In this document: positions 4,294-25,879 of the stretch, in pieces
Layout of the letters: each line of letters begins with the position of its first letter
Position numbering within the stretch: the first letter of the stretch is position 1
Source of the DNA: Bryobacterales bacterium
GTDB taxonomy: Bacteria > Acidobacteriota > Terriglobia > Bryobacterales > Bryobacteraceae
Reading direction: 5' to 3'
Assembly (NCBI GenBank): GCA_020851655.1
Contig: JADZCI010000289.1
Location: 1-32,448, forward strand
DNA: 32,448 nt
Notes under the pieces: generated by a model
Told to the model about the DNA's origin: nothing
Database searches by the model: none
Seen by the model: only the letters and a program-made list of their open reading frames with translations
Translations under genes and position numbers: made by a program

Positions 4294-5715
4294 TCACCCC
4301 GCGCCGGCGGGGATACGCGCCAGAACCGCGGCGCGAAACGCCGCGTCATCGATGGCGTCCAGATTGATGCGCACGTTCGCCATCGCGCCTTCGCGGGCCG
4401 CATTGGCGAGCGCGATGGCGGCCACCACGTCGGATGCGAACTTGGCCGGGCTCTCGTCTTTGAGCCGCGCCAGCGCAAGCGCGAGTTCGTGGGCTTGTTC
4501 AAGTACCTCGAGCGGAACCAGAGTGGCGCCGCGCATCGCTTCGGCGACAAACGGAGCGCGCTCCTCCTTGGGCCGCCGGTATGAAGCAACCACAGCCTTG
4601 TAGGCCGCCGCATCGCGGTCGACGGCTTCCTGCAAGAACTCCCGCGTCTTGAGAAACACCGCGGCTTCCAGCTTGGACAACCGCGCCACCATTTCACCCA
4701 GCGCGGCCGCCATGGCGCCCGCCGCCGCCGCCGCGCTGCCGCCTCCGGGCGTTGCCGTGGGAGCCGCCAAAGCTTCGAAAAACTGCGCCAAACCGGAGCG
4801 TTCCTCCAGCGCCGCCCGCACCCGGTTTTCGAGCACCATCGATGGATCGAAGTTTTCAAACTTCAGGTAATGGTTCGCCGCCATCTCCAGAGCGCGCTTG
4901 GGAATCAGACCAATCAGCTCGCTTCCCAGGACTCGGACGCCTCTTGCGCTGGCCTCCTCGGTTACGGCGTCAAAGACCTTGTGAACCGGCGTGATCTCAA
5001 AATCGGTCAGGTTCATTGAGACCTGCGCCACGTTGCGGGACGCTAGCGTCAAGCCCATGGCCTTGACGTTAGGGAACCCTCCGGAGGAGGTGCGTATCTT
5101 TCTTGCGATCTGGCGCGCAATGTCCACGTTGCTGGTATCGAGGTTGATGTTGTAGGCGATGAGGAACTTCCGGGCGCCAATGACCGTAGCCCCGGCGGTA
5201 GGATGCAAGTCCGGCCCGCCGGTGTCGGGCGCGCGCTCGGGATTGTCTTTGACTTCCTGCCTCAGTCCTTCGAATTGCCCGCGGCGTATATTCTCCAGAT
5301 TGGTGCGTTCCGGACGCGCCGCCGCAGCCTCGTAGAAATACGACGGCACTTGATGCCGCTTCCACAATGCCGCCGCCGCTCTGCGAGCCAGTTCAACACA
5401 CTCGTCCAGCGTCACGCCTTCCAGCGGAACGAAGGGCAGCACATCCAGCGCGCCAATGCGCGGGTGCACGCCCTGGTGGTGATTGAGATCGATTGCCGCA
5501 ACAGCGGCGCCCGCCGCCGCCAGCGCCGCTTCCACCACAATTTCCGGCGGCGCGACAAAGGTTATCACCGAACGGTTGTGGTCCGCGTCCATCTCGACGT
5601 CGAGCACCAGCGCGCCCGGAATACTCCGAACGGCCGAAGCCAGACGGTCCACCAGCGCGGCGTTCCGCCCTTCAGAAAAGTTCGGAACGCACTCTACAAG
5701 TCGTTGATGTCCCAT
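4294..5715 (-). CDS. ftcD: Fused glutamate formiminotransferase / formiminotetrahydrofolate cyclodeaminase
   Basis: Bifunctional folate enzyme of 473 aa. It moves the formimino group of N-formiminoglutamate to tetrahydrofolate and then releases ammonia to give 5,10-methenyl-THF, so it completes histidine degradation to glutamate. Residues 1-180 form the FTCD_N domain starting with [11 protein letters not shown]; the catalytic-His region reads GVHPRIGALDV (about 82-92). Residues 181-300 form the second transferase domain, and about 308-473 the cyclodeaminase, with TPGGGSAAAAAGAMAAAL. The cyclodeaminase part is short compared with stand-alone proteins of about 200 aa. Start: ATG at 5715 with AAGGAG 5 nt upstream; a longer in-frame extension into hutI is rejected. 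It overlaps the end of hutI by 22 nt. Confidence 0.95.
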   Translation of the reverse strand: MGHQRLVECVPNFSEGRNAALVDRLASAVRSIPGALVLDVEMDADHNRSVITFVAPPEIVVEAALAAAGAAVAAIDLNHHQGVHPRIGALDVLPFVPLEGVTLDECVELARRAAAALWKRHQVPSYFYEAAAARPERTNLENIRRGQFEGLRQEVKDNPERAPDTGGPDLHPTAGATVIGARKFLIAYNINLDTSNVDIARQIARKIRTSSGGFPNVKAMGLTLASRNVAQVSMNLTDFEITPVHKVFDAVTEEASARGVRVLGSELIGLIPKRALEMAANHYLKFENFDPSMVLENRVRAALEERSGLAQFFEALAAPTATPGGGSAAAAAGAMAAALGEMVARLSKLEAAVFLKTREFLQEAVDRDAAAYKAVVASYRRPKEERAPFVAEAMRGATLVPLEVLEQAHELALALARLKDESPAKFASDVVAAIALANAAREGAMANVRINLDAIDDAAFRAAVLARIPAGAG

Positions 5716-6973
5716 GCGGGCTCCTTTTCTTTCTGCAGGATCTCGCCCCGCTTGAACGTGAGTTCCACTTGGTTGACTCCAAAATGATAGGGAATCTCGC
5801 GGTAATCGGAAATATCCATGAGCAGGAGGTCGGCCTGTTTGCCGGCTTCGATCGAGCCCACTTGGCCCGCGATGCCAAGCGCGTGGGCGCCGTTGACCGT
5901 GGCCGCCGCGATTGCCTCCGCCGGCGTCATCCTCATCTGTGTACACGCCAGGGCGAGCACCATTTGCATGTTATAGGTCGGGCTGGTGCCCGGATTGAAA
6001 TCGGTCGCCAGCGCCACGGCGGCTCCGGCTTCGATCAACTGGCGCGCCGGCGGATAGCGCGACGAACCAATGTGGAAGACCGATCCGGGCAGCAAGGTCG
6101 CCACGACATTCGATTGGGCCAGCGCCCTGACCTCGGCCTCGGCGATCTGCTCCAGGTGATCGGCGCTCATCGCGCCCTGTTCGACGGCAAGCTGCACCGC
6201 GCCCAGGTTGGCAAACTGGCTGGCGTGTATGCGCGGCTTGAGCCCGGCTAGCCGGGCCGCCTGCAAGTAACGGCGCGACTGCTCGACGGTGAAAGCGTTC
6301 TGGTCGCAGTACACATCGGCGTAATCGGCCAGCCGCCTGCGAGCCACCGCCGGAATCATGTCCGTGCACAGCCAGGAAATATAGTCGTCGGCCCGTCCTT
6401 CAAATTCCGGCGGCACCGCGTGCGCTCCCAGGAACGTGGAGTAAATGTCCAGCGGGCGCGCATCCCAGTGGCGCGCCGCGCGCAGCAGTTTGAACTCGGA
6501 GGTCTCGTCCAAGCCGTATCCGGACTTGGCTTCGACCGACGTTGTGCCGTGTTCACCCATCCGGCGCAAGACCTTGCGCGCCTCGGCCTCCAACCGCCGC
6601 CACGTCCACGACCGGACGCTCCGCACCGTCGACAGGATGCCCCCGCCGTTGGCCGCGATCTCGGCGTACGTCTTGCCGGCGATCCTCATCTCGTAATCTT
6701 TCAGCCTGGGAGGGCCGCAAACGAGGTGAGTGTGGCTGTCGACAAAACCGGGCAAGACAACCTTGCCGTACGCTTCAATCTCGGTCGCCTCCCGCGCCGA
6801 GGCAAGGTTGGTCAGCCGCCGGCTCGGCCCAACTTCTTTGATGATTCCATCCTCGATCAGCACCGCGCCATCCAGGATGATTCCTAAGTCGGCCAGCGCC
6901 GGGCCCCGGCGTGGTCCGGCCGCGCCGCGAAGCGTCAGCAACTGCTTCGCTCCGCGGATCAGGTATGTGGAAG

Positions 6974-6977
<4 letters not shown>
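5694..6977 (-). CDS. hutI: Imidazolonepropionase HutI
   Basis: Third enzyme of histidine degradation: a cytosolic amidohydrolase that opens 4-imidazolone-5-propanoate to N-formimino-L-glutamate. It has 427 aa, normal for the family. The metal motif SHTHLVCG gives H82 and H84. Further family signatures are [31 protein letters not shown] and [14 protein letters not shown] with its metal-binding Asp. The start overlaps the hutU stop by 4 nt (ATGA), and the end overlaps the formiminotransferase gene by 22 nt, a tightly coupled hutU-hutI-ftcD order matching the pathway order. Confidence 0.97.
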
Positions 6978-8632
<1,655 letters not shown>

Positions 8633-11237: not shown

Positions 11238-11414
11238 CTAGTTGACAGCCGACGTAATGATCGAACCCAGCTTGGAAAAGGCTGTGCTCACGCTGGTGCT
11301 CAGCGCGGGCATGACGGCGACGGCGGCAACCGCGACCAGTCCTGCGACCAGCGCGTATTCCACCATGTCCTGTCCCCGGCGGTCCTTCCAAAGGTTCGTA
11401 AACCAGTTCTTCAT
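11238..11414 (-). CDS. flp: Flp/Fap-type pilin subunit (58 aa)
   Basis: Major subunit of the Tad (type IVc) pilus. The 58-residue prepilin has a short basic leader (KNWFTNLWKDRRG) and the class III processing site: cleavage after Gly14 would give a mature protein starting QDMVEYAL, with the hallmark Glu5-Tyr6 pair. A hydrophobic helix (ALVAGLVAVAAVAVMP) follows, then a short polar tail ending SAVN. AAGGAG lies 6 nt before the ATG. It sits downstream of and codirectional with tadZ, separated by 107 nt that could hold its own promoter, and is followed by a strong nested hairpin. A prepilin peptidase is required, but none is in the window. Confidence 0.93.
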   Translation of the reverse strand: MKNWFTNLWKDRRGQDMVEYALVAGLVAVAAVAVMPALSTSVSTAFSKLGSIITSAVN

Positions 11415-11521: not shown

Positions 11522-12718
11522 TTACCGGTTGCGGGAAGAAAACCAGCTTCGCAAACCGGAGGGCGGCGCCTGGCCGTTCCCCCCGGCGGGCGTGGCGGGC
11601 CCCAACATCGCCCTAACGCTGCGGCAATACACAGACTTGGCGTTGGCCGGCCGGCCTTCCAGCACCGCCCGGTGCAATTCCTGCGGGTCCGAAGCGAGGA
11701 CTCCGGCCACGGGCATCGCCAGCGCGGCCTCCACGTCCTGGCGCGACAACCCCTGGTTGGGGAACCGTTGGTTCATCACGAGCCGGATCTTCTGGCGGCC
11801 GACTCCGGCCCGCTCCAGCCATTCAGCCGACCGGCGGGTCTGGTTGAGCGCCGGCAAGTCGGAGGTCGTCACCAGGTAAACCTGATCGGCGCCGGCCGCC
11901 AACACATCCGCCGAATCCACGTTCACGCCGCCTGAGTCAATTATGGTTACCGGGTAGGAACGCCGGAAGAAACCGAGGACGTCGGCCGCGGCGGCGGCGT
12001 CGAGCCGCACGGGATTCGACGGATCGGGCGCGGCCAGGACGTCCATGCCGTCCGCTTTGACGACCAGGCGCGCCCATAGTTCTCCGTCCAGCCGGCTCCA
12101 GTTTTGCAAGGCGTCCGAGAACCGGTATTCCGGCTGAATCTTCAGCAGGAAGGAAATTGTCTCGCCGGCGCTGTCGCTGTCGACCAGCAGCGGCGCCGCA
12201 CCGTTCTGGCGCAGTTCCACGGCCAACTGCGCGGCAAACGTGCTCGCCCCGGAGCCCGCCTTGCCCGGCATCACCAGGATGACCGTCCCCGGGCTTCTTT
12301 CGTCCGCCTTGGCCGCCGGCCGCACCAGGCCTCCCAACATCGCGGAGAGCTGATGCGGATCAACCGGCGGCGCGATGAATTCCCGAATGCCGTGCCGGAG
12401 CAGCCGCAGAATGAGTGTCGCGTCCGGCTGGCTCACGTGCAGCGCCACCAGCGGCAGCGACGAGCCGAGTTCTTCAACCGTCTCGATGGCGCGCGTGGCG
12501 TCGGACGAAATATCGATCAACGCGAGGTTGGCGTCGCGATCGGCCGCCATCCGGAGCGCCATCCCTGGCGCCGGGTACGTGGCCAAACCAATGATCTCCG
12601 CCGTTCCGCAGATCCGCAGCGCGGCTTCGACTTCTTCCCGCAGCCGAAGATCTGGGCAAACCAGCAACGGGCGCCAGCCAACGCCACTGTCGCGTTGTGC
12701 GCTCATTAGAGGATTCAT
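11522..12718 (-). CDS. tadZ: TadZ/CpaE-like pilus-localisation ATPase
   Basis: ParA/MinD-superfamily protein of 398 aa that in Tad systems marks the polar site of pilus assembly. Residues 16-130 form a receiver-like N-terminal domain (LLVCPDLRLREEVEAAL, LALIDISSD), typical of CpaE/TadZ. The ATPase part starts near 145. Its P-loop reads PGKAGSGAST: the deviant-Walker lysine (K153) is present, but the second lysine of KGGxGKT is alanine, as in many CpaE proteins. The Walker B-like strand is TIIDSGGVN. AGGAG is only 2 nt before the ATG at 12718, unusually close; the ATG at 12706 is an alternative at 14 nt. It is divergent from the membrane protein-cpaB operon across 98 nt. Confidence 0.88.
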   Translation of the reverse strand: MNPLMSAQRDSGVGWRPLLVCPDLRLREEVEAALRICGTAEIIGLATYPAPGMALRMAADRDANLALIDISSDATRAIETVEELGSSLPLVALHVSQPDATLILRLLRHGIREFIAPPVDPHQLSAMLGGLVRPAAKADERSPGTVILVMPGKAGSGASTFAAQLAVELRQNGAAPLLVDSDSAGETISFLLKIQPEYRFSDALQNWSRLDGELWARLVVKADGMDVLAAPDPSNPVRLDAAAAADVLGFFRRSYPVTIIDSGGVNVDSADVLAAGADQVYLVTTSDLPALNQTRRSAEWLERAGVGRQKIRLVMNQRFPNQGLSRQDVEAALAMPVAGVLASDPQELHRAVLEGRPANAKSVYCRSVRAMLGPATPAGGNGQAPPSGLRSWFSSRNR

Positions 12719-12816: not shown

Positions 12817-14412
12817 ATGACGTGTAGCGGTCCCATCCCGCGGGCGGAAACCAACGTCCGGCGTGCTCCCTGGTGGATGCCGTCGGTCTCCGACCTCTTC
12901 TTTGCGGCGCTGCTCTATGCCGCTTTCGGGCGCCGCGGCGGATGGCAGTCGCTGCTCACCGACGCCGATTGCGGCTGGCATATCCGGACCGGTGAGTACA
13001 TTTTGACCACCGGCTCGGTCCCGTGGACCGATCTCTTCTCCTTCAGCCGTCCCGGTTCGCCCTGGTTTGCCTGGGAGTGGCTGAGCGACGTGCTGTTCGC
13101 CTGGTTGTACCGCGCCGCGGGTTTATCGGCGGTGGTCGCCTTCAGCGGGCTGGTCATTGGCATTGCGGTTCTCCTCTTGTGGTGCTGGCTGCTGCGGCAG
13201 GGCGTGGGGCTGTTCGTCGCGCTGCCGGTTACGCTTCTGGCCGCCAGCGCTTCCACGGTTCACTACCTGGCGCGGCCCCACATCTTTACCATTCTGCTGT
13301 TCACCGTGTCGCTGTGGCTGCTCATCGGCGACCGGCGCCATCCGGGCGCGCGCGTGTGGTGGCTCGTACCCATCACCGCCCTCTGGGCCAACCTCCATGG
13401 AGGATTCCTCGCCTGGCCCGTCACCCTCGCGGTGGCGGCGTTCATCGATGCCTGTTCCAGGGACTGGAGCAAGGCCCGGCGCTACGGCGGGCTCACCCTG
13501 GCCTGCGCCGCGGCAACCTTGCTGAACCCCTATGGCCCCCGCGTCCACGCCCACATTGTTCAATATTTGGGGTCGGCATGGATTTCCAACAGCATCCAGG
13601 AGTTTCAGTCGCCGCAGTTCCGCTCCGAGAACGTCATGATCTACGGCCTGCTGCTGATCGCCGGCCTGCTGCTCGCCCCGTCCGCCTGGCGGAACGGTGA
13701 GCGCTTTCAGGCCGTGCTGGTCTGCCTGTGGGCCTGCGCCTCGCTCCGCTCGGCCCGCCACATCCCCCTGTATTCGATTGTGGCGGCGCCGGTGATTGCG
13801 GGTTGCTGGAGCGCCGCTTGGCGGAGGCTCGCCCACCGCTCGGCGCCGCGTTCACTGGCCGCCACGGCTTGGCAGGCTTCACTCGAGTACGGGAGCGCGT
13901 TAGGCCGCCCGACGCCCTGGCTTGCCGCTCTCGCGGCAGGCGTCTTCGCCGCCACTCTGTCGCCCAAAGACGTGTCGGACTTTCCATCTCAACGCTTTCC
14001 AGCGGAAATGGTAAAGCTCCACTCTAAGGAATTGAAAACCTCCGGCAGGACTCCTCGCATTCTGACGACCGACCAGTGGGCCGATTACCTGATCTTTCGT
14101 CTTTATCCGGACGTGCGAGTGTTCTTTGACGGACGCAGCGACTTTTACGGTCCGGAAGTTGGCAACCAGTACCGCGCGCTGATGCAGTTGACCGGAGATT
14201 GGCGGGAGCAGTTGCGGCGGCACGATTTCGACGTGGCGCTGCTGCCGCTGGACTGGCCGCTGCGCGAGATCCTTGAAACTGACCGCGCCTGGCGCAAAGC
14301 CGGCGCCGACAAGCTTGCGGTTCTATTCGTTCGCAATCCTGGAGCTCCGGTGTTGTCTGGCGGCGAGGCGGCGCGGGGCGCAAACCTCGTGGGTGAGGGA
14401 GGGACACAATGA
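12817..14412 (+). CDS. Polytopic membrane protein, GT-C glycosyltransferase-like, heading the cpaB operon
   Basis: A 531-aa protein with roughly ten hydrophobic segments between residues 20 and 390, and a soluble C-terminal part (about 400-531). The first periplasmic loop holds DADCGWHIRTGEYIL and TDLFSFSRPG, acidic-loop features reminiscent of GT-C (PMT/ArnT-like) glycosyltransferases. The tail motifs TTDQWADYLIFRLYP and VFFDGRSDFYG recur in such bacterial membrane proteins. No enzyme activity is proven for this subgroup. The stop overlaps the cpaB ATG by 4 nt (ATGA), so it is translationally coupled to the pilus operon. There is no SD before 12817; an ATG at 12877 (residue 21) is an alternative start. 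It might glycosylate pilin or envelope glycan, which is inference only. Confidence 0.75.
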   Translation: MTCSGPIPRAETNVRRAPWWMPSVSDLFFAALLYAAFGRRGGWQSLLTDADCGWHIRTGEYILTTGSVPWTDLFSFSRPGSPWFAWEWLSDVLFAWLYRAAGLSAVVAFSGLVIGIAVLLLWCWLLRQGVGLFVALPVTLLAASASTVHYLARPHIFTILLFTVSLWLLIGDRRHPGARVWWLVPITALWANLHGGFLAWPVTLAVAAFIDACSRDWSKARRYGGLTLACAAATLLNPYGPRVHAHIVQYLGSAWISNSIQEFQSPQFRSENVMIYGLLLIAGLLLAPSAWRNGERFQAVLVCLWACASLRSARHIPLYSIVAAPVIAGCWSAAWRRLAHRSAPRSLAATAWQASLEYGSALGRPTPWLAALAAGVFAATLSPKDVSDFPSQRFPAEMVKLHSKELKTSGRTPRILTTDQWADYLIFRLYPDVRVFFDGRSDFYGPEVGNQYRALMQLTGDWREQLRRHDFDVALLPLDWPLREILETDRAWRKAGADKLAVLFVRNPGAPVLSGGEAARGANLVGEGGTQ

Positions 14413-15320
14413 TCGCAATTGACCGCAAGTTTACCGTGGTGGTGACGATCTGCCTCGCCTGGGCGATGATTGTCTCACTCTTCTTCTACCGCATGTCGGC
14501 GGGCAAGGCCGGAAAAGGCAATCCCAAGGAAAAGCCCGTCGTAGTGGCGGTCCAGCCTTTAGGGGTTGGCGCCGTCATCGGCCCGGAGGCGGTCAAGCTG
14601 GCCAGCATGGCGGAAAACGCAGTGCCGAAATCCAGCTTCTCGAAGCTCGAAGATGTCATCGGCCGCGCCGTAAACAATCCCATCCTGCTGGACGAGGCGG
14701 TGCTCGAGGGCCGGCTGGCGGCGCGGGGCAGCGGTCCCGGCGTGGCCCCGCTGATTCCGAACGGCATGCGCGCCGTGGCCATTCGTGTGAACGATGTGGT
14801 CGGCGTGGCTGGTTTCGTGCTGCCCGGCATGAAGGTAGACGTCCTGGTGACCGGCCGGCCGCCCAACAGTTCCGAAACGGTGACGGCCACGGTGTTGCGG
14901 AACGTGACGGTCGTTTCCGCCGGGCAGACGATCCAGACTGATGGCAAGAGCCAGGCGATCAACGCGCCCGTAGTGACGCTCCTGGTGACTCCCGAACAGG
15001 CCGAAGCGCTCACGCTGGCCAACAATGAGGGGCGGATTCAACTGGCGTTGCGGAACTCGGTCGACACCGGCCAGGCGCCCACGCCGGGCCGGCAGTTAAG
15101 CGCCCTGTATAGCGTTTCCCGGCCGCAAGAACCTCCGCCGCCTCCACCAGCGGCCGCGCCGGCGGCCCCGCGGGCGTCTCGCCCCGCTCCGGAAAAACGA
15201 GTTCCACGAGCCGAGCCCAAGGTGGCTGAACCCGCGGCGCCCGCCGAAGAGCCGGTCACGGTCATCCGGGGGAATCTGAAAAGCCTCGAGCCGGTCCGGC
15301 GCGCGGGAGGCGCGTTATGA
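14409..15320 (+). CDS. cpaB: Tad pilus assembly protein CpaB/RcpC
   Basis: Periplasmic Tad component that works with the secretin. It has 303 aa: a signal-anchor helix at residues 10-27, then an SAF domain (about 42-105, VVVAVQPLGVGAVIGPEAVKL), then the RcpC/CpaB core with GMRAVAIRVNDVVGVAGFV and LPGMKVDVLVTG, and VTLLVTPEQAEALTLANNEG. The C-terminal about 70 residues are proline/alanine-rich low complexity (a PPPPPPAAAPAAP stretch), probably a flexible periplasmic linker. GGGAGG lies 6 nt before the ATG. It overlaps the upstream membrane-protein gene and the downstream cpaC, both by 4 nt. Confidence 0.93.
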   Translation: MIAIDRKFTVVVTICLAWAMIVSLFFYRMSAGKAGKGNPKEKPVVVAVQPLGVGAVIGPEAVKLASMAENAVPKSSFSKLEDVIGRAVNNPILLDEAVLEGRLAARGSGPGVAPLIPNGMRAVAIRVNDVVGVAGFVLPGMKVDVLVTGRPPNSSETVTATVLRNVTVVSAGQTIQTDGKSQAINAPVVTLLVTPEQAEALTLANNEGRIQLALRNSVDTGQAPTPGRQLSALYSVSRPQEPPPPPPAAAPAAPRASRPAPEKRVPRAEPKVAEPAAPAEEPVTVIRGNLKSLEPVRRAGGAL

Positions 15321-16621
15321 AGGCGTTTTTCATTCTGGCGGGTTGGGCCGCGCTGGCCGCCGCCGCCGAATTTCCCGAGACTGTCTTAGCCGTGGGGCGG
15401 GGAACCGTGATCGAGTGTGGCGAAGGCATCGCCAGAGTCTCGACCAGCAGCCCCGACGTGGCCGATGTGGCCATGGCCAGCGGTACGGAAGTGCTGGTGC
15501 AAGGGAAAGCGATTGGCCAGGCGACCGTCATCCTGTGGCCGAAAACCGGTCCGCGCCGCCTGTATCCCATCCTTGTCGAACCCAACATCGAGCCGGTGCG
15601 CCGGCTGTTGCGGGAGGCGTTTCCAGGCGAGCAGATTGATGTCCGCGCCACCAAAGACTCGATGGTGCTCGTGGGGCGCGTCAGTTCGCCGGTGGCGGCT
15701 GAAAAAGCCTTGGCGCTCGCCGTTACCGCCTTCAAGGGGACGGTGAGCAATCTCGATGTGTCGCCGGCGCCCCAGGACCGGCAGATCCTGCTCCGCGTCA
15801 AGTTCGCCGAACTGAACAAAACCGCCTCCAGCGAGTTCGCGCTGAACCTAGTTTCCACGGGCGCGCTCAATACTCCGGGCGCGGTCACCACCGGCCAGTA
15901 CCCCGTTCCGCGCCCCAGCCGCATTGGCGGCGGCGCACCAGCCGAATTTTCGCTCTCCGACGTGCTCAACATTTTTGCCTTCCGCCCCGACCTCGACGTC
16001 GGCGTGCTGATCAAGGCGCTGCGGAGCAAGGGGCTGCTCCAGATTCTCGCCGAGCCGAACCTGGTGACCACCAGCGGCAAAGACGCAAGCTTTCTGGCCG
16101 GCGGCGAATTCCCCGTGCCCGTGGTCCAGGGCGGCGCCAATGCGGGCGCGATAACGGTTCAATTCCGCCAGTTCGGCATTCAGCTCAGTTTCCAGCCGCA
16201 GTTGACCTTCCGCGGCACCATCCGCCTGCACGTCAAGCCGGAAGTGTCTTCGCTCGATCCGGCCAACGGGGTTGTCGTGTCCGGCTTCAACATCCCGGCG
16301 CTGTCAACCCGGCGCGTCGAAACCGACATTGAGCTGAATCCGGGGCAGAGCTTCGCCATCGCCGGGCTGATTGACGACCGGGTCACTCAGAACCTGGCGC
16401 ACATTCCGGGACTGGCCAGTATTCCGCTCCTCGGAGAACTGTTCAAGAGCCATAACTTCAGAAAGTCGAAGACGGAACTGGTGGTCGTGGTGACTCCGGA
16501 ACTCGTGCGTGGGGACTCGCCCATTGCGCTGCCCAACATGCCGGAACCATTCTTTGATGAATCCACCGGCAAGCCGCCGCCGCAACGCCCGAAGGAGAAG
16601 GGCCCGAAGGAGAACAAATAG
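15317..16621 (+). CDS. cpaC: Tad pilus secretin CpaC/RcpA
   Basis: Outer-membrane secretin forming the channel for the Flp pilus; 434 aa with a signal peptide (about residues 1-17). Residues 20-95 form the pilus-type N-terminal domain (VGRGTVIECGEGIARVS), about 95-155 a BON-like region, and about 165-400 the secretin core with LAEPNLVTTSGKDASFLAGG. The family signature near the C-terminus is IPGLASIPLLGELF, then KTELVVVVTPELV. The last about 30 residues are a lysine/proline-rich tail. GGGAGG lies 6 nt before the ATG; the ATG overlaps the cpaB stop, and cpaF starts directly after the stop. Confidence 0.95.
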   Translation: MKAFFILAGWAALAAAAEFPETVLAVGRGTVIECGEGIARVSTSSPDVADVAMASGTEVLVQGKAIGQATVILWPKTGPRRLYPILVEPNIEPVRRLLREAFPGEQIDVRATKDSMVLVGRVSSPVAAEKALALAVTAFKGTVSNLDVSPAPQDRQILLRVKFAELNKTASSEFALNLVSTGALNTPGAVTTGQYPVPRPSRIGGGAPAEFSLSDVLNIFAFRPDLDVGVLIKALRSKGLLQILAEPNLVTTSGKDASFLAGGEFPVPVVQGGANAGAITVQFRQFGIQLSFQPQLTFRGTIRLHVKPEVSSLDPANGVVVSGFNIPALSTRRVETDIELNPGQSFAIAGLIDDRVTQNLAHIPGLASIPLLGELFKSHNFRKSKTELVVVVTPELVRGDSPIALPNMPEPFFDESTGKPPPQRPKEKGPKENK

Positions 16622-17965
16622 ATGCATCCTGGCGCGACCGACATCAGGAACGCCGTAGCCCGCCCCGTGCCGCCGCCGCTCTCGGAAGCCGCGCGCATGA
16701 ACTACCAGGAGCTGAAGTTCACCCTTCACCGCAAGCTGCTCGACCGCATCAACCTCGATGCGCTGGCCGAAGTCGATTCCAACAAGATTCGCAGCGAGGT
16801 GCGGCAGGCCGTGCTGACGATTCTGGCCGACGAGCCGGTTCCCTTGACCGGGGCCGAAAAGCAGCAGATCAGCGAAGAGGTGATGCACGAGGTGTTCGGG
16901 CTGGGCCCGCTGGAACCCCTGCTGGCGGACCCGGCCATTTCGGACATTCTGGTGAACGGGTACAAGCAGGTCTACGTGGAGCGGCGCGGGCTGCTGGAGA
17001 CTTCGCCAGTCTGCTTCCACGATAACGGCCACCTGCTGCGCATCATCGACAAGATCGTCTCGCAAGTGGGCCGGCGCGTGGATGAATCCAACCCGATGGT
17101 CGACGCGCGCCTGCTCGATGGGTCCCGCGTGAATGCCATCATCCCGCCGCTGGCGCTGGACGGCCCGCTGCTCTCCATCCGGCGGTTTTCCAAGGACCGG
17201 CTGATGCCGGACGGCCTGGTATCCAGGCTGGCCCTGACGCCCGGCATGATGGCGTTTCTCGAGGCGGCGGTCAAGGCCCGCTTGAACATCATCATTTCAG
17301 GCGGCACGGGCGCCGGCAAAACGACGCTTCTCAACGCGCTGTCGGCCTACATTTCCCCGCGCGAGCGAATCGTCACCATCGAGGACGCCGCCGAGTTGCA
17401 GTTGAAGCAGCCTCACCTGGCGCGCCTGGAAACGCGCCCGGCCAACCTGGAAGGGCAGGGCGCGGTGCGGCAGCGCCAGTTGCTGATCAACAGCCTGCGC
17501 ATGCGTCCCGACCGGATCATCGTCGGCGAGGTGCGGGGAGAGGAAGCCTTGGACATGTTGCAGGCGATGAACACGGGCCATGACGGCTCGCTCACCACGA
17601 TTCACGCCAACAGCCCGCGCGATGGCGTCTCCCGTCTGGAGGTGATGGTCTCCCTGGCCAACGCCAACATGACGCTCGTCTCCATCCGCCAGCAGATTGC
17701 CTCCGCCGTGCACCTGATCGTGCAGGCCAGCCGCCTGGCCGACGGCTCCCGCCGTGTCACCAGCATCACCGAAATCACCGGTGTGGAAACGGACATCGTC
17801 ACGCTCCAGGAGATTTTCACTTTCGAAAAGCGCGGCCTGTCGAGCGACGGCAAGGTCCTGGGGCGGTTTGTGTCCAGTGGCATTCTGCCCAAGTGCCACG
17901 AGCGTTTTGTGTCGGCCGGGATCAAGATCCCGTCGGAAGTCTTTGACGAGGTCGTCCCGGTGTAG
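16622..17965 (+). CDS. cpaF: Tad secretion ATPase CpaF/TadA
   Basis: Cytoplasmic hexameric ATPase powering Flp pilus assembly; 447 aa. The N-terminal helical domain runs to about residue 110 and the second N-domain to about 215. The RecA-like core has Walker [10 protein letters not shown] at 227-235, the Asp box around [12 protein letters not shown], Walker [10 protein letters not shown] at about 298-306, and the His box [14 protein letters not shown]. The ATG follows the cpaC stop with no gap and has GAAGGAG 9 nt upstream. An ATG at residue 26 (MNYQELKF) resembles where homologues begin and is a possible alternative. Confidence 0.96.
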
Positions 17966-17967
17966 CC

Positions 17968-18936
17968 ATGCTTCCCGCGTTTCTTGTTACGGCAATCTCC
18001 AGCATCGGCCTGTTCCTGCTCCTGTATCGCAGGCTGGAACGAAAAGAAAACGCCGCCGTCATGCGGCGGCTCTCGCCGGAGTTCGCCGCCAAGGAGGAGA
18101 AACAGGAAGAAGCCGAGCCGCTCCTCATTCAGCCGCACTCCCAGATCCGCAGCCTGCTGGCCGGACGCATCCTGGAGCGGCTGAAGCTCAAAGAGAAGAT
18201 CGATCACCTGCTCGAAACGGCGGACGTCAACTATGGGCCGGTGGGCTTGGTGCACCGGGCGGCCGGCGCATTTCTGGCCGGATCGGCGCTCGGACTGGCC
18301 GCCGCTGGCATCCGCCGTCCGCTCATCATTCTGGGCGCGGGCTTTGCGGCTTCGTTCATCCCGGTATGGCTGGTGAAGCGGAAAGCGGCCAAGCGGATTC
18401 ACGCCTTTGAAGAGCAGTTTCCGGACTGCCTGGAATTCATCTCCCGGTCCATGCGCGCCGGGCACGCCTTCTCGGTGGCGCTCGAGATGGTCCACAAAGA
18501 GTTCCCCGACCCCTTGTCGAGCGAGTTCCGGCGAATCTTCGAAGAGCAGAACCTCGGGCAACCGCTGGATATCGTCCTCCGGAAACTCGGCGACCGCGTT
18601 CCGTCGCTCGACTGCCAGTTCTTCATTTCCGCGGTGCTGCTGCAGAAGCGGACCGGGGGCAACCTGGCGGAATTGCTGGACAAGCTCGCCGGGCTGATCC
18701 GCGAGCGTTTCAAGCTTCGCGCCCGTATCCGGGCCATCAGCGCGCAGGGACTCATGTCGGGCCGGATTCTAGCCGCCATACCCATCATCGTGGGTGTGCT
18801 CATGTTCCTCGTCAACCGCGAGTACGCCGGCTTCTTCATCAACGATGAGACGGGCCAGAAGATGATGATGGCCGCCATCGGATTGCAGGTGTTCGGCTAC
18901 ATGATGATCCTCAAGATGGTCAAGATCGAGGTCTGA
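17968..18936 (+). CDS. tadB: Tad inner-membrane platform protein TadB
   Basis: One of two T2SSF-family membrane proteins forming the platform on which CpaF acts. It has 322 aa: an N-terminal helix (residues 2-20), a charged cytoplasmic stretch, two hydrophobic segments around 88-130, the T2SSF domain (about 150-280) with FEEQFPDCLEFISRSMRAGHAF and QNLGQPLDIVL, and two C-terminal helices (about 265-285 and 300-318). It starts 2 nt after the cpaF stop without a strong SD, so coupling is likely. tadC follows after 3 nt. Confidence 0.94.
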   Translation: MLPAFLVTAISSIGLFLLLYRRLERKENAAVMRRLSPEFAAKEEKQEEAEPLLIQPHSQIRSLLAGRILERLKLKEKIDHLLETADVNYGPVGLVHRAAGAFLAGSALGLAAAGIRRPLIILGAGFAASFIPVWLVKRKAAKRIHAFEEQFPDCLEFISRSMRAGHAFSVALEMVHKEFPDPLSSEFRRIFEEQNLGQPLDIVLRKLGDRVPSLDCQFFISAVLLQKRTGGNLAELLDKLAGLIRERFKLRARIRAISAQGLMSGRILAAIPIIVGVLMFLVNREYAGFFINDETGQKMMMAAIGLQVFGYMMILKMVKIEV

Positions 18937-18939
18937 ACC

Positions 18940-19857
18940 ATGCTCGACCCTGTTTTCCTGCTCCTGTTTTCGGTGGTTTCGATTGGCTCCGTCATGGCGG
19001 CCTGGCTCCTGCTGGGCAAGAACACGCAGGCGGTGGAGCGCATCAAAGAGCGCCCCAAGCTACGCCCGGTCATGCCGGTCAGCGCCGCCATGGGGTGGCG
19101 GGAACTGGTTGCGCGGGCGGGTCAATGGGTCCCCGCCTCCACCAAGAATTCCCCGGAACTGAAGCGCCTGCTCGTCCGCGCCGGCTGGCGGCATCCGCGC
19201 GCACCGCGCCTGGTGCAGGCGGCCAGAACCGTGATGATCGCGGTGCTTGCCGCCGCCGGAGTGATCACCGCCCTGGTCCTCCACTTCCCCTTGCCCCGCG
19301 TGGTCCTGATGGGGTGCGCGGGCGCGATCGCGGGGCACATCCTGCCCACCCGCCTTCTCCGGATCAAGATCAGCAGCCGAAGAAAGGCCATCGCCAAGGG
19401 CTTGCCTCACGTGCTCGACTTGATGGTGGTTTGCGTCGAGTCGGGACTGGGCATGGACCAGGCGACCCTGCAGGTGGCCAAGGAACTCCAGCATGCCTAT
19501 CCGGCGCTGTGCGATGAATTCACGGTGATGAACCTCGAGTTGCGCGCCGGAAAGCGCCGTACCGAAGCGCTCCATAACCTTTCGGAGCGCGCCGGGGTGG
19601 ACGACCTCAAAAAGCTGGCCGCGGTTCTGATCCAGGCGGACAAGTTTGGCACCAGCATTGGACAAACGCTACGCTCGCATTCCGACTACATGCGCGTCAT
19701 GACGCGCCAGAGAGCCGAGGAGCAAGCCGCGAAACTCGCCGTCAAGCTCGTCTTCCCGATCTTCTTCTTTATCCTCCCCGCGCTGTTCGTCGTTACGCTC
19801 GGGCCGGTTGTCATGAAGATGGTCAACGAGCTCATGCCAATGCTTGACCGAATGTAA
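18940..19857 (+). CDS. tadC: Tad inner-membrane platform protein TadC
   Basis: Second T2SSF-family platform protein, 305 aa: an N-terminal helix (residues 4-24), a pair of hydrophobic segments around 90-128, and the T2SSF domain with GLPHVLDLMVVCVESGLGMDQA, cut here to its core LMVVCVESGLGMDQA (about 163-177). It continues with MNLELRAGKRRTEAL and DKFGTSIGQTLR and ends in a C-terminal helix (LVFPIFFFILPALFVVTLG). GAGGT lies 7 nt before the ATG. It is the last large gene of the plus-strand pilus operon; hairpins and a micro-ORF follow. Confidence 0.94.
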   Translation: MLDPVFLLLFSVVSIGSVMAAWLLLGKNTQAVERIKERPKLRPVMPVSAAMGWRELVARAGQWVPASTKNSPELKRLLVRAGWRHPRAPRLVQAARTVMIAVLAAAGVITALVLHFPLPRVVLMGCAGAIAGHILPTRLLRIKISSRRKAIAKGLPHVLDLMVVCVESGLGMDQATLQVAKELQHAYPALCDEFTVMNLELRAGKRRTEALHNLSERAGVDDLKKLAAVLIQADKFGTSIGQTLRSHSDYMRVMTRQRAEEQAAKLAVKLVFPIFFFILPALFVVTLGPVVMKMVNELMPMLDRM

Positions 19858-20084: not shown

Positions 20085-21476
20085 CTACATCGACAGGCGG
20101 AGGATGTCGGAAGCCAACTGCATGAACATTGCCTGAAGCTGGTTGGCATTGTTGGCATAGGCCAGCATGCCGACCGGCTGGCTGGAATTGTATGTCGGGC
20201 TTTCAGGCACGTTCGACACCCGCTGGAGCAACTCCATCTCCGGCGGCGAGGCGGCATTGCCGAGTCCTACCGAGTAGGTCACCACCCACAGCCCGTTGGC
20301 GGTGGAGTCGCTGCGGACTCGCGCCGCGGCATTGACCAGCGCGTTGATGCCCGCATTGGTCACGTTGTTCGCGTTCAACGTAATGCGGTTGTTGCCATCG
20401 CGGTTGACGCTCTTCCAGCCGGCGAGGGAATTGCCGTTGACGTCAACCTCGTTGGCCGCGCCCGCGTCGGCCAGCGACACCACATCGCTGGTGACATTGG
20501 CGAAGTTGCCGTTGTAGGCGCAATTGTTGCTGTTGGCCACCACGCGCCAGTCCGGGTTGGGGGCTGGTGGGGGACCCGTCTCCGCGGCCAGAAAGATCCC
20601 CCAGATTGCGGCGCCCGCCGGCGTGACGACGCCGTTCTTGGCGGTCTTATTCGAACAACTGCTGGAGGCCTTGATTTGCAGGGCGGGCATATGGAGTGTG
20701 TTGGGCTGGCCATCGGTAAAGAACAGGATCACATTGAGCGCCCCGGGCTCGTTGATCGTGACCAGCTTCTGGTATGCCAGCCAGTATGCGGCGGCGGCGT
20801 TGGTGCCGCCGACACAAGCGATGTTGTTGACCATGGTGACCATGTCACCGCCGCCCCCACGCGACTGAAAGTCTGTCGCCGGGTCGAAATCGCTGCGGTA
20901 GGTGGTTCCAAACGTGACCAGCCCCAGCCGGTCCCTGCCATTGACAAACGACTGGATAAAGCTCACCGCCGCGCCTTTGAGCGGTGTGCACGAACTGGAG
21001 TTGGCAAGCGATCCCGAGCGGTCCAGCACCATGACGACATTCACGTCGCGCCGGATCGCGGCGCCCCGGGCGTGCAGCGTCACGTGTGTGACGCCGAACA
21101 TGCGCATAAAATAAGTATTCACGTCCACGGCTGTGTCGATCTGAACGATGGTCGCTTTTTGGGGAGCGGGCGGAAACGTGATGTTCCGCGCCGGGTTGCT
21201 GAGCCCTAGCCATCCGTTCTGGATGTTGGCATCAAAAAATTTCTGCGCCGTCGCTGTGGCGCTGCCTTGTTGCGCTTCCAGCGAAATTCCGCGGCTGAGC
21301 GAGCGCGCCGCCGCCAGCGCGGCGCCATCGGTCGAAGTCTGGAGCTTCGCCTTGATGGCGAATAGCAGGCCCGAATCGATCGCCAGACCCACCACCGGCA
21401 CCACGACAAAGAATAGCGTCAAGGTGAACAGCGTGGTGACGCTGCCTTTTCTGTGAGTCGCTTTGAAAGGGATCAT
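20085..21476 (-). CDS. tadG: TadG-like pilus-associated protein with vWA domain
   Basis: A 463-aa envelope protein. The N-terminus has a TadE/TadG-like membrane helix (about residues 12-34) after KG, then TDGAALAAARSL, typical of TadG. A von Willebrand factor A domain begins near 143 with the MIDAS motif VMVLDRSGSLA (DxSxS) and includes GLVTFGTTY and LFFTDGQPN. The domain region carries several cysteines (for example SSSCTP, NIACVGG, SSSCSN, NNCAY) that could form disulfides outside the membrane. It acts with TadE proteins at the pilus base or surface. GAGGA lies about 11 nt before the ATG. It is the last gene of a tadE-tadE-tadG minus-strand operon. Confidence 0.9.
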   Translation of the reverse strand: MIPFKATHRKGSVTTLFTLTLFFVVVPVVGLAIDSGLLFAIKAKLQTSTDGAALAAARSLSRGISLEAQQGSATATAQKFFDANIQNGWLGLSNPARNITFPPAPQKATIVQIDTAVDVNTYFMRMFGVTHVTLHARGAAIRRDVNVVMVLDRSGSLANSSSCTPLKGAAVSFIQSFVNGRDRLGLVTFGTTYRSDFDPATDFQSRGGGGDMVTMVNNIACVGGTNAAAAYWLAYQKLVTINEPGALNVILFFTDGQPNTLHMPALQIKASSSCSNKTAKNGVVTPAGAAIWGIFLAAETGPPPAPNPDWRVVANSNNCAYNGNFANVTSDVVSLADAGAANEVDVNGNSLAGWKSVNRDGNNRITLNANNVTNAGINALVNAAARVRSDSTANGLWVVTYSVGLGNAASPPEMELLQRVSNVPESPTYNSSQPVGMLAYANNANQLQAMFMQLASDILRLSM

Positions 21477-21500: not shown

Positions 21501-22094
21501 TCAAAACAAAGCGATCGAATACGCGCCGGCCGCATTGTTGAATCCCGGAAAGCGCCATTGCGGGGCGTCGAAGTATCCTTCCGCCACGTAGGCGTACTCG
21601 CCCGAAGCCAGTTGCATGTACGGGAACGTGGCCACATTGCGTGAATCCTGCATGTAGTTGCCGACAATCCCCATCGAGTCCACCCCGACCGGTGTTCCCA
21701 GGCTGCTGGTTCGCAGGCTGGAGTTACCGATGACGAGGCGCTGAGTTATGACGTGCCGGTCGGAATTGCACGGGTTCAGTCCCGAACTCGCGCAGGTCGC
21801 CGCCGAAATCCACGTGACGCGCGTCAGGATGACGACACCTTGCCCTCCGGCGCGCGTCATCCCCATGCCGCTGGCCAGCCGTACGAGAATGTCCTGGTTG
21901 CCCGTCTTCGAGAAGTCGACGCCGCGCACAAACATGCTGGCCGCATCGCGGGTCACCTGCGCCGCGCGAACGTTGTGGCCCAACTGCAACCCCACAACGA
22001 TCACCCACACCATCAGGAGAAACGAGGGCGTCATGACAAACGCCAGCTCGACCAGCGCGCTGCCTCTCGTTCTCCGGCGCTTTATCCCGGTCAT
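21501..22094 (-). CDS. tadE: TadE-like pseudopilin (197 aa)
   Basis: Minor pseudopilin of the Tad system. The basic leader MTGIKRRRTRG is followed by SALVELAFVM, with Glu at +5 of the predicted cleavage after Gly, then a hydrophobic helix to about residue 37 and a C-terminal soluble domain. Start: ATG 22094 with AAGGAGG 9 nt upstream; the in-frame extension to 22454 runs through the neighbouring tadE and is rejected. It lies 29 nt after the first tadE-like gene and 24 nt before tadG. Confidence 0.88.
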   Translation of the reverse strand: MTGIKRRRTRGSALVELAFVMTPSFLLMVWVIVVGLQLGHNVRAAQVTRDAASMFVRGVDFSKTGNQDILVRLASGMGMTRAGGQGVVILTRVTWISAATCASSGLNPCNSDRHVITQRLVIGNSSLRTSSLGTPVGVDSMGIVGNYMQDSRNVATFPYMQLASGEYAYVAEGYFDAPQWRFPGFNNAAGAYSIALF

Positions 22095-22123: not shown

Positions 22124-22603
22124 TTACGGCGTTGGAGGCGCCGTGCCCCGCGGCAGCGTCTCCAGACGGTCGGCCGATTTCGCCGAGATCGTGATCAGAC
22201 CCGAGGTGCGCCACAGATCCACCATGCCGGACCATTGCAAGCCCTCGACCGATACCTCGACAATGTTGCCCGACGCGTTGCGGTTGGGTCCCTCCACTTC
22301 CTCGAACGTAACCGGCGAGTAGAACCGGACCTTGACCTTGTCCCGGCCGCCATCGCCGCTCAAAAAGCCGCTCGAATTCGTCATCACCACGTTTTGAATC
22401 GACACCGTCTGCGACTTGCCCGGCTCGGTCCGGAACGTAATCGCATACCGGCAACCCTCTCTCACGGCATGGGTCATGAGGCTTCTCAAAAAGATCGGTA
22501 TGGAGAAGTCCACAATCGTCAACAACATCGCCAGGAGTGGAATCACCGCCATGGGTATCTCCACCAGGGACGTCCCGCGCTGGGGCTGCCGTGACTGTTT
22601 CAT
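22124..22603 (-). CDS. tadE: TadE-like pseudopilin (159 aa)
   Basis: First gene of the minus-strand tadE-tadE-tadG operon. The leader [10 protein letters not shown] precedes [10 protein letters not shown], again with Glu at +5, followed by a hydrophobic helix (about residues 15-37) and a soluble domain containing [11 protein letters not shown]. The ATG at 22603 is chosen because the pseudopilin leader begins there; upstream in-frame sequence is unlike any TadE and overlaps the divergent promoter region. Only a weak SD is visible. The mature soluble part is smaller than that of its partner gene, so the two are distinct subunits, not a recent copy. Confidence 0.85.
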
Positions 22604-22713
22604 GCTCGGCTTCACGACACTTGCTCTGTTCCCCTCATCGCACTTTTGGACGCCCGCGAGAGTCGGTGACATCCCTGAGAATGGACTTGCTTGTCGCCTG
22701 AGAGGCCGGCCCG

Positions 22714-22740
22714 TTGACCTCCGCCGCCGTGTGCTATCCT
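22714..22740 (+). promoter_or_regulatory. Candidate promoter of the dienelactone hydrolase gene
   Basis: TTGACC (22714-22719) and an extended -10 TGCTATCCT (22732-22740), separated by 15 nt. The spacer is short, but the TGn extension compensates. The predicted start leaves a leader of about 38 nt before the ATG at 22785. Confidence 0.4.
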
Positions 22741-22784
22741 GCTCGCCAATAAGGCCTGGATGCTCGTCGAGGAGGCAGCGGAGA

Positions 22785-23675
22785 ATGGAACGGAAACAAG
22801 CCAAAGATTATCCACAGGAATTGCTCGACCTGTTTGACGATTACGTGCACGGCGGCATCGACCGCCGCGCGTTCCTGGATGGCGCCAAGAAATATGCCGC
22901 CGGCGGAGTCACCGCCACGGCTATCTGGGAAAGCCTTCGCCCCAACTATGCCTGGGCGCAACAGGTGGCCAAAGACGATGCGCGCATCAAGACCGAGGTC
23001 GTAACGGTTGATTCGCCCCAAGGCAATGGCAGCATCAAAGGCTATCTGGCCCGCCCTGCCAACGCGGGCAAGCTTCCCGGAGTCCTGGTCGTACACGAAA
23101 ATCGCGGCCTCAACCCCTATATCGAAGACGTGGCGCGCCGCCTGGCCGCCGCCAACTTCATGGCCTTTGCGCCGGACGGCTTGACCAGTGTGGGCGGCTA
23201 TCCGGGCAACGACGAGAAGGGCGGCGAACTGTTCCGCCAGGTCGACCGCGAAAAGATGATCCAGGACTTCATGGCCGCCGCGCGCTGGCTCAAGGCGCGC
23301 CCGGACTGCTCGGGCAAGATCGGAGTCGTGGGCTTCTGCTTTGGCGGCGGAGTCGCCAACACGCTCGCCGTCCGGTTAGGCTCCGAACTCTCGGCCGCCG
23401 TGCCTTTTTACGGCGGCCAGCCCGCCGCGGCCGATGCCGGCAAGATCAAGGCGCCGCTGCTGATCCAGTACGCCGGACTCGACACGCGCATCAATCAGGG
23501 CTGGCCGGCCTACGAAGAAGCCCTCAAAGCCCACCACGTCACCTACACGATGTACATGTACGAGAACGTGAATCACGGCTTCCACAACGACACCACGCCG
23601 CGCTACGACAAGGCCGCGGCCGAACTGGCCTGGCAGCGAACCCTGGATTTCTTCAGCCAGTACCTGCGCGGCTAA
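22785..23675 (+). CDS. Dienelactone hydrolase family protein with Tat-like leader
   Basis: Alpha/beta-hydrolase of the dienelactone hydrolase (YghX-like) family; 296 aa. The N-terminal region has [16 protein letters not shown] (about residues 23-38) and ends at YAWAQQ, a twin-arginine-type signal common in this subgroup, so export folded through Tat is likely. The nucleophile elbow GFCFGGG carries the family cysteine; the Asp is in YAGLDTRI and the His in NHGFHND, completing the Cys-Asp-His triad. Natural substrate unknown; these enzymes hydrolyse lactones or esters. Start: ATG 22785 with GAGGAGG 9 nt upstream, preferred to the longer in-frame start at 22416, which would run antisense to tadE. 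A stand-alone gene, divergent from the tadE operon. Confidence 0.92.
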
Positions 23676-24396: not shown

Positions 24397-24783
24397 ATGC
24401 AGTTGCCGCTCTTTGTCTACGGCACGCTCGGCAGCGCGTTCCAGAACCGCTGGGCACGCCGCCTCTGGGACGGGAAACGGCCTCTCGGAGCAGCCCGCAT
24501 CCGGGGCCGCCTCTTCCTCTTGGACGGCTATCCCGGCTTGACGCCGCCGCGCGGCCAGTCCGAGTGGGTCCGCGGCGAACTCGTGAACCCCCGCGGCTTG
24601 TTGCGCTGGCTCGATTGCTACGAAGGTCCGTGCTTCCGGCGCTGCATGCGCCGCGTAGTCACCGGAAAGGGCGAGACGCTTCGCGCCTGGGTGTATCTCT
24701 ATACCGGCCCTCCACCGGCCGGACGCAGAATCTGGACGGGATCATTTAATACTGCAACGCGGTTCGCAAGTCGGAGGGCTTGA
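24397..24783 (+). CDS. Gamma-glutamylcyclotransferase-like (GGCT/AIG2) protein
   Basis: A 128-aa protein of the GGCT/AIG2 superfamily, which often releases 5-oxoproline from gamma-glutamyl compounds. The signature is FVYGTLGSAFQN at residues 6-17, then GRLFLLDGYPGL, RGELVNP and LDCYEG, which holds the acidic region near the catalytic Glu. The ATG at 24397 fits the family N-terminus; an upstream in-frame start would overlap DUF1175. There is no SD; TATCAT lies 7 nt upstream. The last 38 nt overlap the end of the convergent methyltransferase gene. Substrate unknown. Confidence 0.83.
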   Translation: MQLPLFVYGTLGSAFQNRWARRLWDGKRPLGAARIRGRLFLLDGYPGLTPPRGQSEWVRGELVNPRGLLRWLDCYEGPCFRRCMRRVVTGKGETLRAWVYLYTGPPPAGRRIWTGSFNTATRFASRRA

Positions 24784-25879
24784 TGATCAACGCTCTCTCC
24801 CTGCGGTCTGTGCCGTCAGGACACAAGGCAAGGTCTGCTTCAAACACCAGTTCAGCCGTGCCCTGGCCGAGTCCTTCCAGTAGGGCGACAAACTGGCAGG
24901 CGCCGGCTTCGCGGTAGGATTGCGCCGGCAGCGGTTTCCCGTTGGCGGTCGCGCGCAGCCGCAGGGTTGCGCCCGCCAGGACGCTTTCCGGCAGTACAAA
25001 AGGCAGAACGAGCCGGGCCGAAGCGTTGCGAATGCCGCTCACGGCAACCGAGAACCGCCGGGCCGTCCAGCGCCATGTGCCGTCTTCCAGTTCGTGCCAG
25101 CCGTCGAGCAGCCGGACTCGCAGACTCCCGGCAAGCACCCTGCTGCGCAGCAGACAAAACGCCCGCTCGTCACACTCCGCCCGGACGGGATCGGAATTAA
25201 CGGAGTTGCCGAACGTCACCATGTCGCACACATCCCATTGCGCCCGGTCCAGGATGCGGCGCAGCCCGCTTTCGGAAAAAATCCAGTAGTTGGAGTAATC
25301 GCCGTTCAACTCCTCCGGACCCACCAGGTAGGCTACCGGGAAACCCTGCACAAGCGTCTTCTGATCCGGCATGTACTTGGCCACGCGCGTGTTCAGGAAA
25401 CACCACTCGGCGCGCCGGGCCAGTTCCTCCAGCACAAAGAACGGATTCTTCAGGTGATACAGCCCGCCAAAAAAGAAGGCCGCCGTGTAGTATTGCGCCG
25501 GAAGCTGGAAGCGGGAATCGAGATCCTGGGAGTGGATCTCGACGCCACTGCCAAGCAATTCCCTCATGCGTGCGACCCCGCGCATGAAGTTCATGTTGGT
25601 GACAGGCCAGTCCACCGCGTGCACCGCGCAGCCCAGGGATTCCAAAAAAAACGCCAGGTCGCCATCGGCGCAGCAGAGGTCCAATACCGGGCCGGCGCCG
25701 AAAATCTTTAGCAAGTCGCGCCGTTCCGGGTGAAGAAATTTCTCCAGCAGGCAGAAGTTGCCGATCGAGTCGTAGGGGTACCATGGGAACTCGCCCGGTG
25801 GATTGCTCTGCTTCACTTCGAGCAGTCTGGCTTGAAACTTCCCCGCGCCTTCAACCAGCGCCGCCAACGGGTCCGTCAC
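24746..25879 (-). CDS. SAM-dependent methyltransferase with C-terminal beta-rich module (copy 1)
   Basis: Class I methyltransferase of 377 aa. Motif I is VLDLCCADGDLAFFLE, then the acidic strand-2 end VHAVDWP, with YHLKNPFFVLEEL later. The family N-terminus carries EFPWYPYDS. From about residue 250 a separate domain has DGWHELEDGTWRWTARRF, then beta-rich sequence ending RERALIIKPSDLR; similar modules occur in surface-polysaccharide enzymes. Substrate unknown. The GTG at 25879 is preferred to the ATG at 25933: it overlaps the CoA-binding gene stop as GTGA, has GGGAG about 10 nt upstream, and makes the protein match its 378-aa paralogue at 26386-27522. The 3' end overlaps the GGCT gene. Confidence 0.85.
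   Translation of the reverse strand: MTDPLAALVEGAGKFQARLLEVKQSNPPGEFPWYPYDSIGNFCLLEKFLHPERRDLLKIFGAGPVLDLCCADGDLAFFLESLGCAVHAVDWPVTNMNFMRGVARMRELLGSGVEIHSQDLDSRFQLPAQYYTAAFFFGGLYHLKNPFFVLEELARRAEWCFLNTRVAKYMPDQKTLVQGFPVAYLVGPEELNGDYSNYWIFSESGLRRILDRAQWDVCDMVTFGNSVNSDPVRAECDERAFCLLRSRVLAGSLRVRLLDGWHELEDGTWRWTARRFSVAVSGIRNASARLVLPFVLPESVLAGATLRLRATANGKPLPAQSYREAGACQFVALLEGLGQGTAELVFEADLALCPDGTDRRERALIIKPSDLRTALQY

Follow-up and report, generated by a model that had tools for sequence, protein, structure and literature searches.

The tad operon of a Bryobacterales bacterium opens with a gene for a GT-C glycosyltransferase-like membrane protein, and the gene is built into the operon both here and in the majority of relatives that possess a Tad pilus. 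Sequence searches place its product in a family that has no name. Structure prediction supports a GT-C fold for the protein, closest overall to the oligosaccharyltransferases STT3, AglB, and PglB, and the conserved position of the gene beside cpaB and the core tad genes in Acidobacteriota supports its being a dedicated Tad accessory. Below, the evidence for these statements is laid out, together with the case for a role in glycosylating the pilus.

Layout of the tad locus

The window, by which we mean the whole 32,448-nucleotide stretch of DNA that was analyzed, holds the features collected in Table 1. Six co-oriented genes form the operon. The GT-C gene comes first and is followed by cpaB, the secretin gene, tadA, tadB, and tadC. 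The junctions between them are tight. An ATGA at 14409-14412 carries both the stop codon (TGA) of the GT-C gene and the start codon of cpaB, an overlap of 4 bp. cpaB and the secretin gene likewise share 4 bp, at 15317, and the gaps before tadA (16622), tadB (17968), and tadC (18940) are 0, 2, and 3 bp, respectively. The first-pass annotation had read both the ATGA overlap and the leading position in the machine operon, and both are there in the sequence. Its description of the GT-C gene as “translationally fused” to cpaB was overstated, in that these are separate genes sharing only four bases.

No plus-strand gene lies 5' of the GT-C gene in the window. The genes for CpaE and the Flp pilin are on the opposite strand, divergent to the GT-C gene, and those for TadG and TadE are found on the minus strand further downstream. 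A scan of the sequence for promoters and terminators returned sites no more common than in shuffled sequence.

Table 1. Features of the tad region, with positions in the window
Feature	Position	Strand	Evidence
GT-C glycosyltransferase-like gene, 531 aa, opens the tad operon	12817..14412	+	ORF listing, ATG start; AF2 pLDDT 87.4, pTM 0.86; PDB matches STT3/AglB/PglB/DPY19/ArnT
First external loop, residues 47-88, likely catalytic acidic loop	12955..13080	+	Conservation, 25 homologues
Periplasmic C-terminal domain, residues 388-508	13978..14340	+	Folded alone, pLDDT 91.6; VIA matches
Motif DQWADYLI, residues 419-426, near start of C-terminal domain	14071..14094	+	Conservation, 25 homologues
cpaB/rcpC	14409..15320	+	TIGR03177 3.5e-60
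Secretin (CpaC/RcpA)	15317..16621	+	PF00263 1.6e-42
tadA/cpaF ATPase (T2SSE)	16622..17965	+	PF00437 8.3e-58; TIGR03819 8.9e-99
tadB (T2SSF)	17968..18936	+	PF00482 9.2e-18
tadC (T2SSF)	18940..19857	+	PF00482 1.3e-17
cpaE/tadZ-like ATPase	11522..12718	-	TIGR03815 6e-21; PF10609 5.4e-7
Flp major pilin, 58 aa	11238..11414	-	ORF; PF04964 4.7e-9 at 11262-11390
tadG-like minor pilin with VWA domain	20085..21476	-	PF13400 1.4e-9; VWA 2e-9
Small TadE-like protein	21501..22034	-	Homologue in sister tad locus L074; no Pfam match of its own
tadE-like minor pilin	22124..22804	-	PF07811 4.9e-6

The source genome carries a second copy of the GT-C gene, 36% identical, in another tad locus where the order is flp, GT-C, cpaB, secretin. 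Of 151 genomes of the class, 86 contain homologues that share the motifs, and the reading frame is therefore not a chance one. Elsewhere in the window, a minus-strand stretch upstream of the tad region (4294-8632) looks, by reading, like a histidine-degradation cluster encoding urocanate hydratase, imidazolonepropionase, and formiminotransferase. Two similar minus-strand genes, at 24746-25933 and 26386-27522, look like tandem paralogous methyltransferases.

Predicted fold and conserved residues

To what family does this protein belong? Neither Pfam (E up to 1) nor NCBIfam models matched it, no convincing Pfam match was found among 75 homologues, and the PDB, searched by sequence with the single protein and with a 75-row profile, returned nothing at E up to 10. 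Membership by sequence in the STT3 family was considered and ruled out: PF02516 has no match in the window protein (E up to 1) or in the 75 members (0.1), and it is absent from 61 genomes of the class. PF13231, the PMT_2/ArnT model, likewise has no match in the window protein and matched 1 of the 75 members weakly (0.0029), even though the two groups have the GT-C fold in common.

In an AlphaFold2 model built with 25 homologues, residues ~24-380 form a bundle of membrane helices and residues ~388-508 a globular alpha/beta domain at the C terminus, an architecture that agrees with the initial description of a polytopic protein with a soluble tail. Compared with the PDB by Foldseek, the model drew 20 matches below 1e-3, all of them GT-C enzymes. 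Yeast STT3 was the top match (8age_A, E 1.4e-8), and the others include DPY19, AftA, human and archaeal oligosaccharyltransferases (AglB), ALG12, PglB, and ArnT. VIA-align gave Z 22.8 for STT3 over 458 residues (rmsd 4.8), 19.2 for AglB, 18.6 for PglB, 16.3 for ArnT over 402 residues, and 14.7 for AftA. When the C-terminal domain was folded alone, the best 20 rows in VIA (Z 5.5-9.2) were again all GT-C, with STT3 and AglB leading. The top Z was 9.2 over 114 residues, and the next unrelated row stood at 4.5. The GT-C fold, which the first-pass annotation had proposed to check by structure prediction, is thus borne out by Foldseek and VIA-align alike.

The likeness to STT3, AglB, and PglB covers 430-460 residues, including the periplasmic C-terminal domain, and extends to an acidic first external loop and a DxWxDY in the region of the WWDYG motif. 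The differences are that the window protein has neither a PF02516 match nor a canonical WWDYG, that identity in the structural alignments is ~10%, that its gene belongs to a tad operon, and that the Flp encoded nearby has no N-X-S/T sequon.

Which residues might do the chemistry? In the first external loop, D49, H55, G59, P69, D72, S75, W83, E87, and W88 are invariant in 25 homologues, and D51 is conserved in at least 90% of them. The “GT-C-like acidic loops” noted at the outset are represented here by the invariant or near-invariant D49, D51, H55, D72, and E87. Over the wider set of 75 homologues, W88, R153, N192, H194, P238, E262, R314, P395, D438, R440, and W492 are invariant, as expected for an enzyme. 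The alignment of 25 homologues also shows conservation of R153-P154-H155 and E262, residues considered with the second metal-binding acidic motif and the SVSE/TIXE motif of oligosaccharyltransferases in mind, and the C-terminal domain carries the motifs D419-x-W-x-x-Y-L and D438-x-R440. These two motifs, R153-P154-H155, N192, H194, E262, R314, and the first-loop residues D49, D51, H55, D72, E87, and W88 sit where an active site is expected.

Within DQWADYLI, D419, Y424, and L425 are invariant and W421 and I426 are conserved in at least 90% of the 25 homologues. Oligosaccharyltransferases carry WWDYG in what is presumably the corresponding region. From the range of the domain alignment and the order of domains, DQWADYLI would correspond to WWDYG by position in a noncanonical form. 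The canonical motif is absent from the window protein; the D, W, and Y are conserved in DQWADY, and the WW and G are not.

Linkage to cpaB and neighbors in relatives

How general is the position next to cpaB? Coordinate lists of GT-C genes and cpaB were matched over 151 genomes of the class, 92 of which have cpaB. Among the homologues listed at 360 bits or more, 20 of 20 lie on the same strand as cpaB and upstream of it, at a gap of 27-1055 bp. The same arrangement within 3 kb is found for 11 of the 16 listed at 240-360 bits (14 of 16 are within 20 kb), for 19 of the 31 listed at 150-240 bits (26 of 31 within 20 kb), and for 9 of the 78 weaker homologues listed (41 of 78 within 20 kb), several of the weaker ones standing in tandem arrays. 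The control was the PMT_2 family of GT-C enzymes, members of which occur in each of the 61 genomes looked at, a subset of those surveyed. Of its roughly 150 listed places, compared by eye, all are more than 3 kb from cpaB and 2 come within 20 kb. Unlike the window family, PMT_2 genes are not tad linked in these 61 genomes. At two loci (L097 in genome G050 and L098 in genome G009), a PMT_2-family GT-C gene does lie 5-8 kb from cpaB; no member of the window family is listed for either genome, and the PMT_2 gene is possibly a replacement.

Random scattering relative to tad loci, which would have spoken against the original proposal, is not what these data show, with all 20 close homologues no more than 1.1 kb upstream of cpaB. 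A phylum-wide sample finds the association with cpaB outside the class as well, the gene there often being divergent to cpaB. The designation “Tad accessory” accordingly stands, the gene keeping its place beside cpaB and the core tad genes in both surveys. The linkage is not universal, however. At 49 of the 132 cpaB places in the class, some of them near contig ends, no family member is listed within 20 kb. Distant representatives of the family are also found apart from tad genes and in genomes that lack cpaB. Of four plasmid relatives, three (L093, L095, and L096) have no annotated tad genes in their surroundings, and the fourth (L094) carries no annotation. It follows that the GT-C gene is an accessory and not a core Tad part. 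In being encoded in tad operons, conserved, and yet not universal, it resembles TadD, RcpB, and RcpC/CpaB. In their broad survey of the type IV filament superfamily, Denise et al. 2019 use a Tad model that treats tadD, rcpB, and rcpC as accessory, and the stem “glycos” is absent from that paper (PMC6668835).

The partners of the GT-C gene in relatives are pilus genes, encoding Flp, CpaA, a TadD-like TPR protein, and TadG. In most relatives, the prepilin peptidase gene cpaA, an Flp pilin gene, or both lie between the GT-C gene and cpaB. The upstream side is more varied. A NarL-type response regulator is encoded there in 11 Bryobacteraceae-type loci, and in the Terriglobia tad loci L066-L068 the GT-C start shares 4 bp with the gene for an NtrC-type sigma-54 activator (L066:1642-4562). 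Another upstream arrangement is a TadD-like TPR protein and then flp, and in L058 and L060 tadG lies upstream, 4 bp from the GT-C gene.

Some neighbors bear on the sugar donor. A GT2 of the polyprenyl-phosphate sugar synthase type adjoins GT-C copies in the tad loci L061, L062, and L071, and the relative in L047 has a GT2 neighbor as well. A distant relative on a Phyllobacterium plasmid (L095) is accompanied by a GT2, a GtrA flippase-like protein, and a methyltransferase, with no annotated pilus gene. The GT2 and GtrA neighbors are suggestive of a lipid-linked donor; no gene for donor synthesis is present at the window locus. In five loci (L058, L059, L060, L061, and L062), the GT-C gene occurs in tandem arrays of 3-5 paralogues per tad locus, which could serve stepwise glycan building or several acceptors.

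Bryobacteraceae-type tad loci also encode a small conserved protein of ~90-125 aa between the GT-C gene and cpaA or cpaB (L032:11549-11881, L053:959-1258, and 14 others). Its core, WRLPSGKALAEFALQAGFLAPLM, aligns with the Flp prepilin cleavage site, GQDMVEYALVAGLVAVA; the leader is long and the Flp tail is absent. This Flp-like protein has no Pfam match, was not found in the window, and could be a degenerate pilin or a pilin-like decoy. At L045:9920-11890, the GT-C reading frame continues in frame into a segment resembling it (SLPSGTPLGVFALRSGFAAPG), possibly a natural fusion and possibly a frame error.

Proposed function and acceptor

What would a GT-C protein do for a Tad pilus? In the reading we favor, for which we infer the activity, the donor, and the acceptor alike, it is probably an inner-membrane, Tad-dedicated, oligosaccharyltransferase-like enzyme that moves a polyprenyl-linked sugar onto a pilus protein, most likely Flp. 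The membrane core would bind the polyprenyl-linked sugar on the periplasmic side, the first-loop acids D49/D51 and E87 would lie at the catalytic center, and presenting the acceptor would fall to the periplasmic C-terminal domain. The sugar would then be moved to a Tad protein before or during assembly, the likeliest target being the Ser/Thr-rich tail of Flp.

Flp is preferred as the acceptor on several grounds. It is the abundant Tad substrate, and the periplasmic tail of the window Flp is indeed rich in Ser and Thr. In addition, Flp1 of Aggregatibacter (A. actinomycetemcomitans) is reported to be glycosylated (PMC6182317), and RcpC, the homologue of CpaB, has been linked to the glycosylation of Flp (PMC12307814). 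N-glycosylation of Flp is disfavored: no N-X-S/T sequon occurs in the mature Flp of the window, which makes O-linked transfer, or another acceptor, likelier than N-linked transfer. Ser/Thr content of the Flp tails did not separate loci with the GT-C gene from those without it, a comparison in which only 2 loci without it have a detectable Flp. Other possible acceptors are the secretin, CpaB, TadG with its VWA domain, and an envelope glycan.

The last point leads to an alternative that we regard as unlikely but worth weighing, namely, that the pilus-encoded GT-C enzyme has a nonpilin acceptor, be it another Tad protein (CpaB, the secretin, or TadG) or a lipid-linked or surface glycan that acts as a docking partner for the pilus. 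ArnT and AftA, whose folds are similar, modify lipids or polysaccharides; in the window, the GT-C gene abuts cpaB and flp sits on the other strand; and the distant plasmid relative keeps its company of sugar genes with no annotated pilus gene. Against this, the GT-C gene abuts flp, cpaA, or tadG at many loci, and the best match by fold, STT3, is an enzyme that modifies proteins. It is improbable that catalysis has been lost and that the protein is a GT-C-fold chaperone or assembly factor for pilins or CpaB. A place inside an assembly operon, with the stop/start overlap, would suit such a factor, and type IVa pili do have pilin-linked accessories without known catalysis, such as TfpY (PMC11841053). 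TfpY-like proteins are not described as GT-C, however, and all 75 members, including those outside tad loci, keep the same acidic, His, and Arg residues in the core. As for a mere passenger, a housekeeping GT-C gene kept beside cpaB by descent alone, this is very improbable, since the association recurs as upstream on the same strand, divergent, downstream, and in tandem arrays over several families and classes of the phylum and so is not explained by one inherited neighbor pair, even if GT-C and CpaB distances do correlate (r 0.92 over 20 loci, in a data set whose TadA column may hold mispicked ORFs), as expected of any coinherited neighbors. That correlation fits coinheritance and tells little about function.

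An enzyme that glycosylates a pilus protein would have a precedent in TfpW of Pseudomonas aeruginosa, a GT-C arabinosyltransferase of type IVa pilins (Kus et al. 2008, cited in PMC11841053). Both are GT-C enzymes encoded by a pilin- or pilus-linked accessory gene, TfpW being likened here by its description. They differ in that TfpW serves type IVa pili, whereas the window gene abuts cpaB in a Tad (type IVc) locus. Pilin-dedicated GT-C enzymes for type IVa pili are thus already known, and it is the Tad-linked family that appears to be new. The literature searched, with most subscription journals lying outside it, describes no Tad-encoded transferase or GT-C protein, and an earlier mention is possible. 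Together with the lack of a Pfam or NCBIfam model, this agrees with the first-pass view of an undescribed protein that is not a known Tad component.

Few adhesive pili are as widespread as Tad pili. A GT-C protein with an oligosaccharyltransferase-like fold that is tied to cpaB across Acidobacteriota is a strong candidate for the enzyme that glycosylates them. More tentatively, a phylum-wide, Tad-encoded, CpaB-coupled family of oligosaccharyltransferase-like enzymes might glycosylate Flp pili, with the paralogues in some loci building different glycans, and might supply the enzyme that accounts of Flp glycosylation have lacked. With the present analysis, an unnamed family gains its first function hypothesis and the question of Flp glycosylation becomes testable. 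If the hypothesis is true, type IVc pili would have a pilin-modifying enzyme of their own, which, to judge from TfpO and TfpW, might play a part in soil adhesion or in escape from phages.
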